DNA of 20,529 bases from assembly GCA_025201865.1 (NCBI GenBank), contig MU602713.1:17859-38387 (forward strand), given 5' to 3'. Position numbers and translations under genes: made by a program. A model generated the notes under the pieces. That model saw nothing but the letters and a program-made list of their open reading frames with translations. It had not been told where the DNA came from and did no database searches. Source of the stretch: Ramicandelaber brevisporus. Taxonomy: Eukaryota > Kickxellomycota > Ramicandelaberales > Ramicandelaberaceae. Positions 7,615 through 20,529 of the stretch are shown one piece after another (positions within the stretch are counted from its first letter, which is position 1; the number at the start of each line of letters is the position of its first letter).

Positions 7615-8333
7615 GTGCACGATTTGTCGCTTTTTGGGCAAAGTTTAAAACGTTATCCAATCAGAGGCGAGGAGGGGAGAGTGAATGGAATCGAAACTGA
7701 CCACACAGGCGTTATTTTTTTCTGAACAAATTTCGGTCCTATTTGCTTCGCTTCGCTTCTCTCTGTCGCTTTGTCTTTCTCTGCATCCCACTCGTGCGCA
7801 CACACACACTCAGCTTCTCTTTTTCTTTTTCTTTTTCTTTTCTTTTTTATTTCTTTTCTTTATTCCTTGCCGTGATAGCCCAACGAGCAATTTTGTGTTT
7901 ACGCAATATCACACTTCGGCTTGCTACTGTCCACTAAGCCGGGTCTACCGCCAAATCGTCGAGAAGGTCACACTTGCTCACCCATCACATTTCCCTTTTG
8001 GCGTCCATCGTTGGCAAAGTTCATTGTTGCGGTAGTTGAGAGGGATTTCTATTTTTGTTCAGCAAGCAAGCAAACTGCCCGCGTGTGTGTACATCACAGT
8101 ATACAGCATCCGCTCACCCACCCACTCTTCGTCTAACTCTCGACGCTTTCCATCTTCGAGCCTTTTGCTTCTCACTCATCTCTGTTTGCATTTTGAGCTG
8201 AAGAGGAAGAGCAGTAGCAACAGCAAGAAGAAGAGGAAAGAAGAAGAAAGAAGAAGCTCTGCTGACTCACAACAGTGGCTCGACTTTGCACACTACTAGC
8301 TAACACTGGTATACAAAACAGCACACTTCCGTA
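7615..8333. promoter_or_regulatory. Divergent promoter region between HEAT protein and phosphatase genes
   Basis: This 719-base gap separates two divergently transcribed genes. A CCAAT element lies at 7657-7668, 43 bases before the HEAT-protein ATG. From 7687 to the phosphatase ATG at 8334 I find no ATG on the plus strand but about ten on the minus strand, which fits a long transcribed plus-strand leader. The region is strand-asymmetric: pyrimidine-rich at 7735-7870 (TTTTTC repeats) and purine-rich (GAAGAA runs) at 8199-8257. No RNA gene or small conserved ORF is recognisable. The minus-strand leader also lacks upstream ATGs for about 170 bases. Confidence 0.55.
7657..7668. promoter_or_regulatory. 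CCAAT box (NF-Y/CBF type) in the divergent promoter
   Basis: CCAATCAGAGGC matches the NF-Y/CBF consensus core CCAATCA. Exactly the same 12 bases occur at 15521-15532 in front of LARP1. NF-Y sites act in either orientation, so this one could serve the HEAT gene, the phosphatase gene or both. Confidence 0.5.
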
Positions 8334-18375: not shown

Positions 18376-18652
18376 CGTTGATCTCGTTACTGCTGAGCTT
18401 ACTTTGGGTGGTAGATCTGGTTTTAAAAAAAATAAAATAAAAAAGCAAACAGGGTTTAGCTTACGACGTGGTGCCCAACTGGGTATCGGTGATGAGGAAA
18501 TAGAGGGTTGGTTGTCGGTTTGTGGGTCGGAACTGAGTTTAAACTACCCATAAGTGCCCACGTAATGTGGAATAACCTATCCAGTCGTTGCAAACGTAAA
18601 AAACTAATTAAAAATGACTATAGTATTAAAGAGGTGTGGATTAGAAAGTGAA
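18376..18652 (-). promoter_or_regulatory. NSUN2 leader/promoter and 3' flank of the EEP-homeodomain gene
   Basis: This 277-base gap lies between same-strand genes. No minus-strand ATG occurs in the first 173 bases upstream of NSUN2, supporting its start. An A-rich tract lies at 18423-18445 (T-rich on the gene strand). An octamer palindrome (GTTTAAAC) falls at 18537-18544. No CCAAT or TATA box is evident. Confidence 0.35.
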
Positions 18653-20529
18653 TCAAACTTCAACTGCAGTGCGCGTGGCATTTTGAGCCTTCCGTCTGTT
18701 TCGTTTCTGAGCATTGAGCCACAGACGAATCTTTATGACATTGACACCAGCTATCTTTGCCCACTTCTCTTTCTCTTCCTTTGTTGGACACGGATTGCTA
18801 CTGTTATCATCAAGCCACTTGTCGAGATATCTTCTCAACCTGGGATGCAACCTGCCACCAGGTAATACTGATTTCCATCCGCCTTCTTCAGTTGGCACAA
18901 TATCCAATTCCGCTACTGCTTCTGCCAATGTCAACGTTTGATTGTCTTTAATTAAGTTGATGATATCACTAGCTTCCTGCAGTATTTCAGAGTGTTCAAA
19001 TATTTGAAGATTTGGAATCACATTTCGAAGTCGCTTGGCTGCAGCATATATTGTCCATTTAGAAACTGTAACTGTAGTTGAAGTTGATGTGGTTGATGAC
19101 TTGATACGTAGAGCTTTTCGAATTGCGCCAAGCTGATTGATTAGTTGCGTTTCAACAGCCAATTTCTGTAGCTCACCGTAGAGTGCTTTGAGGTTATTCT
19201 TGCATCTATTGTATTTAGTGGTACTCTGTTGATGTTGTTCATCAGTTAGTGTACTAGACTGTTGTTGCTGTTGTTGCTGTCGCTGTTGTCGCTGTTGTTG
19301 TGGTATATATGACGATAGAAATCTACCATTACTCAAAAGTCTCAATCCTCTGAGGAAGAGTGCATTTGCTTCTTTGTGAGAAGGGTGCTTATGTGGTGAG
19401 TTGGTGCGGCTGACAATCGTTTCCATACTGATGTTACTGATGTTGCTGCCAATACTAAACTTGAATGCTGTTGTGAAGGAGTGATATTTGGCTGGAGCAT
19501 TGATTGGAATGTGTGTGGATGGAACTGGCGGCTGCTGAGTGTAGGCTGGCAGGATGTCAACTGATGCAACAATCTCGTCGCCAGTACTGGGCTGCTGCAG
19601 AGGCAAGGTGACGCCAACAACAGTGTGGTCGAGATAAGAGTGCAATCCACCGTTAATGCCGTATTGGATAGAGCAGTCAGAAAGCAAATGAGGCGGCAGC
19701 ATTACGACATCCAGTGCGGATACCGGAGCAAGATCTCGGAAATGAGAAAGACGCAGATGAATGTTGGTGGAGCGAGCTGGCGTGTTTTGACAGCGAGAAA
19801 GGTGGACAGGGTCAATGAAACCAATACGAGCCAACGGCATGAGCACAGCTTCCAGATGGTGGTTGCATTCTCGCTTGTACTCGGCCAGCAGCTGTCGATA
19901 CCATAACGAACAACGTAGTTGAAGTGGCGTTGTGACCAATCGGAGGTGGCGGCTTCGGTCGTGCCAATGGCCAACTGAATTGACATCGCCGAGGAAGACT
20001 CGGAAGTAATGCAGCTCACCAATGCTCTTGATGGACTTCTCGATATACTGCCCAAACTGGCAGCGAATTGATGAGCGAGCCTGCCAACTTGAGTGGAAGT
20101 AGCACACGGAAGCATGTACCTTAACCCCACTGAACATTATGAGTTCATACAGAGCAAAGCGACTGTTGAAATCACTCGAATAAAGAGAGCTAGCTCTATC
20201 AAGTTCCACATCAGCAACAGAAGCAACACTGGCCAGGTTGACAACAATGCCCACATATCCACGACGCAGTGCCTTGTAATTCATGCGAGCACAGATTATC
20301 TCCATCTTCTTGAACACAGCCTCTGTCAGCTCAGTAAAACAGACTGTAGAATAGACATTGAGCAATGCAGGAAGATGCTGTAAGAACATGAGCCCATTGA
20401 GCATTCGCAGGTTGATGTGGCAAATGTTCAAATGGTTGTTGCCAACAACGTGCATGTTTCCAGAGCCAGCGACATCCACTTTGCGATTAAACCGCAGATA
20501 TCTGCAAGCTGGCAGCAGTGGAGTGGATG
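18653..20529 (-). CDS. EEP endonuclease domain fused to a TALE-type homeodomain, 5' end cut by window edge
   Basis: The frame is open from the window edge to TGA 18655-18653, about 625 codons. No in-frame ATG fits as the natural start, because the frame enters the window already coding (STPLLPACRYLRFNRKVDV). The N-terminal half (about 19600-20430) matches the endonuclease/exonuclease/phosphatase fold. It has HINLR (Asn codon 20411-20413), CFTELTE (Glu), VCYFHSS (Tyr), FLGDVNS (Asp 19985-19987, Asn 19979-19981), SALDVVML (Asp 19709-19711) and LDHTVVGV (Asp-His 19625-19630). The HINLR..L and SALDVVML patterns resemble CR1/Jockey-type retrotransposon endonucleases. No reverse transcriptase follows. 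After a Gln-rich linker come helical segments and a homeodomain (about 18690-18860) with the TALE-like NPCPTKEEKE loop and RLWLNAQKRNRRK recognition helix. The product is probably a nuclear DNA-binding nuclease or a domesticated retroelement protein. That function is inference. Confidence 0.72.
   Translation of the reverse strand, partial: STPLLPACRYLRFNRKVDVAGSGNMHVVGNNHLNICHINLRMLNGLMFLQHLPALLNVYSTVCFTELTEAVFKKMEIICARMNYKALRRGYVGIVVNLASVASVADVELDRASSLYSSDFNSRFALYELIMFSGVKVHASVCYFHSSWQARSSIRCQFGQYIEKSIKSIGELHYFRVFLGDVNSVGHWHDRSRHLRLVTTPLQLRCSLWYRQLLAEYKRECNHHLEAVLMPLARIGFIDPVHLSRCQNTPARSTNIHLRLSHFRDLAPVSALDVVMLPPHLLSDCSIQYGINGGLHSYLDHTVVGVTLPLQQPSTGDEIVASVDILPAYTQQPPVPSTHIPINAPAKYHSFTTAFKFSIGSNISNISMETIVSRTNSPHKHPSHKEANALFLRGLRLLSNGRFLSSYIPQQQRQQRQQQQQQQSSTLTDEQHQQSTTKYNRCKNNLKALYGELQKLAVETQLINQLGAIRKALRIKSSTTSTSTTVTVSKWTIYAAAKRLRNVIPNLQIFEHSEILQEASDIINLIKDNQTLTLAEAVAELDIVPTEEGGWKSVLPGGRLHPRLRRYLDKWLDDNSSNPCPTKEEKEKWAKIAGVNVIKIRLWLNAQKRNRRKAQNATRTAVEV
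19259..19300. repeat. Gln-rich CAG/CAA tract in the EEP-homeodomain linker
   Basis: Fourteen codons encode twelve Gln and two Arg (Q3-R-Q2-R-Q7) on the minus strand. The mixed CAG/CAA use and CGA/CAG slippage pattern indicate an older, imperfect expansion. It separates the endonuclease half from the homeodomain half. Confidence 0.8.

Follow-up and report, generated by a model that had tools for sequence, protein, structure and literature searches.

An amplified gene family of Ramicandelaber brevisporus joins an EEP nuclease-type domain to a homeodomain with variable base-contact positions

Ramicandelaber brevisporus is a kickxellomycete soil fungus whose genome assembly (G000) comprises 17.9 Mb in 510 contigs. 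We analyzed one stretch of 20,529 nucleotides, C47:17859-38387 on contig MU602713.1, referred to below as the window. At one end of the window, a single open frame of 624 codons on the minus strand encodes an EEP nuclease-type domain, a polyglutamine (polyQ) tract, a helix-loop-helix (HLH)-like segment, and a C-terminal TALE-type homeodomain (Table 1). The frame continues past the window edge, and the 5′ part of the gene lies behind an assembly gap: extension into the flank, as had been suggested, revealed a run of Ns directly beyond the window (L009 1989-3493, C47), followed in the same orientation by a frame encoding the N-terminal part of the family (L009 3494-4447). A reading made from the sequence alone had described the gene as a retrotransposon-type endonuclease fused to a homeodomain. 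The fusion is real; an assembly error or chance joint was rejected, since further contigs and gene models show the same domain order.

Table 1. Features of the EEP-homeodomain gene in the window
Feature	Position in window	Strand	Basis and remarks
C-terminal part of gene, 624 codons + stop, EEP/HLH-like/homeodomain	18653..20527	-	Open frame and paralogues
EEP nuclease domain (predicted), frame residues 21-314	19586..20467	-	Alignment; Foldseek/VIA matches; dN/dS 0.21-0.36 in 10 within-group pairs
Catalytic Asn39, motif HINLR	20411..20413	-	11/11 copies retaining site, 14 examined
Catalytic Glu66, motif FTE	20330..20332	-	12/12 copies retaining site, 14 examined
Tyr143, motif YFHS	20099..20101	-	12/12 copies retaining site, 14 examined
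Asp181-x-Asn183, motif GDVN	19979..19987	-	13/13 copies retaining site, 14 examined
Asp273, motif SALD	19709..19711	-	14/14 copies
Asp300-His301, motif LDH	19625..19630	-	13/13 copies retaining site, 14 examined
Polyglutamine tract	19259..19300	-	Sequence, alignment, frames; differs among copies, C-terminal parts diverge past tract
HLH-like segment, residues 490-528	18944..19060	-	Two predicted helices, low-confidence model
TALE-type homeodomain (predicted), residues 558-615	18683..18856	-	Recognition helix varies among copies, one residue short in window copy
Remnant of the family's common 3′ flank	18592..18652	-	blastn between loci; L009 51 = window 18592

The model predicted for the EEP domain has the EEP sandwich fold, as judged by Foldseek and VIA fold matches. 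The catalytic Asn, Glu, Asp-x-Asn, Asp, and Asp-His are identical in all copies that retain the respective site (14 copies examined), consistent with the earlier statement that the active site is kept. In fold comparison the EEP model scored 13.6 with PDE12, 12.4 with TDP2 and CNOT6L, 12.2 with TRAS1, 11.7 with R1, and 11.6 with APE1, and no endonuclease of a long interspersed nuclear element (LINE) was present among the 50 VIA matches listed for the window model. The EEP enzymes TDP2, CCR4/CNOT6L, and PDE12 have His at motif III; compared with them, the homeodomain partner and a motif III Tyr are features of the family described here. This residue, Tyr143, is presumably at the APE/LINE-type position. 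The APE-type endonucleases of retrotransposons that lack long terminal repeats (LTRs), such as TRAS1, R1Bm, and L1, differ in another way: after the EEP domain, family frames instead carry polyQ, the HLH-like segment, and the homeodomain. Unlike these elements, the complete frames L017, L018, and L019 gave no match to reverse transcriptase, in line with the sequence-only reading, which had found none downstream; a LINE with reverse transcriptase in cis was rejected on this basis. The fusion, the predicted folds, and the missing reverse transcriptase stand, but the label "retrotransposon-type" is unproven. In our reading, catalysis resides in the conserved EEP domain, which most likely nicks or cuts DNA in a metal-dependent manner; we infer DNA as its substrate in preference to RNA or another phosphodiester.

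At the C terminus, Pfam Homeobox_KN scored above cut-off, in agreement with the proposed TALE assignment, and the model shows a three-helix fold that matches Exd with a root-mean-square deviation of 1.3 over 58 residues. The best sequence match in the PDB was PBX1 (E 0.0062). A Pfam search of the window frame itself gave no HLH match; in paralogous frames HLH was above cut-off (L014, 26.6 vs 20.7; L020, 23.3 vs 20.7), and in L015 it was below.

A six-frame search of the genome with the window frame, which supplied the copy number, returned 19 matches, spread over 11 contigs; 18 of the matches contain no stop. Three sequence groups can be distinguished. Window-like copies are C47, C252, C359, C7, C199, and protein P0002; the second group consists of C269, C246, and C435 with P0006 and P0008 (EEP domain 38-39% identical to that of the window), and the third of C299 and C68 (42%). 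Stop-to-stop frames extend over 1,219 (L017), 1,184 (L018), and 1,207 (L019) codons. The full gene encodes, in order, an SR-rich start, a 260-residue domain with conserved cysteines, a low-complexity stretch, and then the EEP, polyQ, HLH-like, and homeodomain parts. P0005 agrees with frame L019 (C435) apart from a stretch omitted by the gene model, and frame L014 2883-4412 comprises HLH and homeodomain with no EEP part. Protein database matches were confined to eight proteins, the window's own P0001 and seven others from R. brevisporus. No relative outside this species was found among the 7,985-7,993 candidates with most shared words scored per protein search; polyQ words may have crowded the candidates in two of these searches, and distant relatives may escape. 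An NCBIfam search gave nothing above cut-off.

The N-terminal region is tentatively called USP-like. Foldseek of P0006 matched USP30, USP15, Ubp8, USPL1, and other USPs with E values of 0.006-0.055 over 62-118 columns; these matches carry no query ranges and are assigned here to the N-terminal region, where the predicted local distance difference test score is 25-50. The sequence profile of the region had no PDB match, and homology to USPs at the sequence level was not significant, hhalign against the USP gene of C215 giving an E value of 0.26. That USP gene (L036 5-1123, minus strand; PF00443, 2.1e-17) adjoins a stretch related to the 3′ flank of the EEP family. A separate observation concerns the C359 copy, whose EEP coding sequence contains a 213-base insertion (L012 6824-7036) with the direct repeat AGTAGAT on both sides. 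The genome search revealed no further copy of it, and gene model P0004 treats it as spliced out.

The nuclease domain evolves under purifying selection. Among nine copies (36 pairs), the ratio of nonsynonymous to synonymous substitution rates (dN/dS) of the EEP domain was 0.21-0.36 in the 10 within-group pairs; in the 26 between-group pairs dS was saturated in 23 and 2.4-2.6 in three. The N-terminal domain gave 0.27-0.64 (28 pairs). The homeodomain follows a different pattern. Positions 47, 50, 51, and 54 are the classical base contacts of homeodomains, and in nine close copies, a set that leaves out the more distant C246 and the C299 frame, their mean entropy is 2.15 vs 0.89 for positions 12-57. 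This value was attained by 2 of 20,000 random quartets, by 0-27 of 20,000 when single copies or the two copies with deletions were left out, and by 23-72 of 20,000 when quartets were drawn from positions 41-58 only. All nine copies have different contact quartets. Positions 25, 27-31, 41, and 46 are variable as well. At the codon level, the proportions of nonsynonymous (pN) and synonymous (pS) differences at contacts were 0.576 and 0.417, and pN/pS of helix 1 and the core was 0.14. With a second alignment the contact values were 0.504 and 0.402, compared with 0.168 and 0.224 at the other 191 codons, and 16 of 20,000 random codon quartets attained the contact pN. The case that the variation sits on the DNA face of the homeodomain is strong; that the contact codons have been under positive selection is suggested by these comparisons, and we hold it with moderate confidence.

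We propose, with middling confidence, that these genes are a lineage-specific, amplified family of nuclear, sequence-directed EEP nucleases that lack reverse transcriptase and in which the homeodomain picks the site. The EEP domain would nick or cut DNA with the help of metal, the HLH segment would probably pair two subunits, and the C-terminal homeodomain would choose the site, its diversified base-reading residues aiming different copies at different sequences. DNA binding, dimerization, nuclear location, and the way the family spreads are inferred as well. What the anatomy itself says is fixed catalysis, variable address.

Several observations speak against this proposal. AlphaFold confidence is low for the models used. 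Contact-codon pS is itself raised (0.40-0.42), so that pN/pS reaches just 1.25 (second alignment) to 1.38, a ratio that comes from 13 synonymous differences, with small counts and non-independent pairs; quartets of codons from the disordered linker attain the contact pN in 99 of 20,000 draws. In the six copies with C-terminal DNA, dN/dS was 0.41 for helices 1-2 and 0.87 for helix 3, and helix 3 taken as a unit does not stand out, 25 of 181 same-size windows being equally variable; the claim of variability is therefore based on the contact positions. Known homeodomains almost always have Asn51; here it is present in one of the nine close copies (P0006) and replaced by D, Y, K, R, or a gap in the others, and its status in the window copy varies with the alignment used. 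The recognition helix is one residue short in C47, the window copy, and in C7. A homeodomain is missing from frames L017, L020, and L021, whose last segment looks by eye like the HLH part, and an EEP-family frame of 1,673 codons on C299 (L015 1457-6475) runs via polyQ into a C2H2-finger protein. Between this last frame and a partial tandem copy, ~96% identical, lie 130 Ns. Finally, neither terminal repeats nor target-site duplications nor a transposase could be established for this family.

The absence of Asn51 from most copies and the helix 3 deletions are compatible with a homeodomain that has lost DNA binding. In the main rival explanation, accordingly, the EEP domain is functional and the homeodomain is decaying: it would drift with its fold kept, for instance as a protein-interaction module. 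Contact pN/pS near 1 and the existence of homeodomain-less frames point the same way. The variation, however, is focused on the contacts and the few other variable positions named above, with helix 1 and the core strongly constrained, and contact pN exceeds the regional synonymous level, unlike what plain relaxation would produce. We consider decay of the homeodomain unlikely, though it deserves serious attention.

A second rival assigns the family to the host, as a domesticated regulator or genome defense whose proteins would, for example, cut or silence invading or selfish DNA, the homeodomains diversifying as they and their targets engage in an arms race. Long intact frames, purifying selection on the catalytic domain, and variable base contacts speak for this view. 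A further argument comes from a neighbor of the window copy, the C2H2-finger gene L009 6529-8814 (C47:42931-45213, minus strand), which belongs to a very large R. brevisporus family with at least 80 matches in the genome (59 of 176 candidates scored) and which may resemble OrsD-type domains, although Pfam did not find these. DNA similar to this family gene was detected near 5 of 13 EEP-family contigs (the 11 of the six-frame search plus C323 and C188, with fetched extents that differ and are short for the latter two); the Poisson or binomial probability is 0.01-0.02 when all 176 candidates are taken as copies. Against a host role stand the lack of a relative among the candidates scored from outside R. 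brevisporus, the dispersed loci, and their mosaic flanks, and an active mobile family would equally show purifying selection between copies. We consider a host role unlikely as well, though it comes second after selfish spread.

The surroundings of the genes bear on the same choice. DNA similarity between the dispersed loci reaches past the genes but is mosaic. Several 3′ flanks end near one point (L019 ~9477), and others continue past it; in the window, similarity to other copies ends at ~18592, just upstream of the neighboring gene. C3 and C32 carry the 3′ flank without a family match. These two flanks (L030 and L031) are 83% alike over 1,357 bases, and each adjoins a minus-strand gene without a Pfam family above cut-off. 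Terminal inverted repeats were considered on account of a 29-base inverted match between L019 9117-9145 in the C435 3′ flank and L009 4677-4727 at the 5′ edge of the C47 copy, perfect for C47 and with one mismatch in C359; we do not claim them, because the 5′ edge is blurred: inspected by eye, L051 shows resemblance past it as well. No TTAGGG array was found in the assembly when a subtelomeric family was considered. Spread by transposition is plausible. Between selfish amplification and a settled role in the host, the former appears somewhat likelier, because copies are dispersed, flanks are mosaic, some copies are incomplete or changed at the C terminus, repeat remnants adjoin some copies, and the candidates scored in the protein searches included no relative from another organism.

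A bolder form of our proposal is rather improbable. The family would then represent selfish genes of a new class, in which an EEP nuclease that lacks reverse transcriptase changes its targets both by diversifying its homeodomain and by swapping C-terminal modules (homeodomain, HLH, C2H2) at polyQ-coding repeats, cuts sites chosen by the homeodomain, and is copied during their repair.

Two further explanations are weaker. An EEP enzyme of the RNA or repair type, closer to the CCR4/PDE12 deadenylases or TDP2 than it is to LINE endonucleases, with RNA or protein-DNA adducts as substrate, would agree with the order of the fold scores, and not with the motif III Tyr; we think it improbable to a marked degree. 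Less probable still is that the gene is an accessory part of some larger mobile element (Helitron, LINE, or other), the genes for replication having been lost or lying elsewhere: degenerate Helitron-like remnants, L048 (C8) and L052 (C172), have a segment in common with the DNA immediately upstream of the C299 copy, and a LINE-tail-like frame with a CxxC...H...C motif seen by eye (L042 2688-3437) lies upstream of the C323 copy, but Helitron_like_N was found neither in this genome nor in any control genome, PIF1 was only on C52, and the LINE-tail-like frame, itself without a Pfam match, occurs at four genome places with no reverse transcriptase match at any. Helitron motifs in the remnants were recognized by eye, and L048 gave Pif1_2B at 29.3 bits (cut-off 23.9). 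Frames L017, L018, and L019 had no Pfam match to a Rep or Pif1-type helicase, which was seen only as the separate degenerate pieces L048/L052. RVT_1 matched five genome places, all outside the family contigs. The four examined are LTR-element-like, matching RNase H and integrase zinc-binding profiles as well (the latter just below cut-off in L026); the fifth is C384. Exo_endo_phos_2 was not found in the genome, and the same profile also misses the EEP family.

Elsewhere in the window, positions 3-512 and 623-1228 on the minus strand encode two tandem, small, cysteine-containing, secreted-looking proteins that by eye are apparently related.

An EEP-homeodomain fusion was not found in paper titles and abstract openings, most subscription papers being beyond reach of the search. 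In one paper that uses the word, "homeodomain" stands for the plant homeodomain, and the available passages describe no such architecture (PMC4120745). What is new in the present family is a nuclease under purifying selection in which homeodomain contacts 47/50/51/54 rank among the most variable positions. TALE proteins such as PBX/Exd and Meis differ from it: here the homeodomain is joined to a nuclease-type domain, Asn51 is mostly missing, and no two contact quartets agree. PRDM9-type zinc fingers likewise vary at the DNA-contacting residues of an otherwise conserved domain; the domain here is a homeodomain fused to EEP, and the variation is between paralogues, not alleles. If our proposal holds, the family would also resemble homing endonucleases and other sequence-specific selfish nucleases in uniting catalytic and target-reading parts in a dispersed gene; unlike homing endonucleases, it has an EEP fold and shows no intron, intein, or defined target site.

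Few natural nucleases are known to be sequence-specific other than homing endonucleases, restriction systems, and RNA-guided enzymes. If our proposal is true, the family would parallel, in nature, the engineered fusions between DNA-binding domains and nucleases, with a fixed active site and base-reading residues that change from copy to copy. It would also offer at least nine natural homeodomain variants with which to study DNA reading in the absence of Asn51. Were the family mobile, it would represent a type of element driven by nuclease targeting and not by a reverse transcriptase or transposase.
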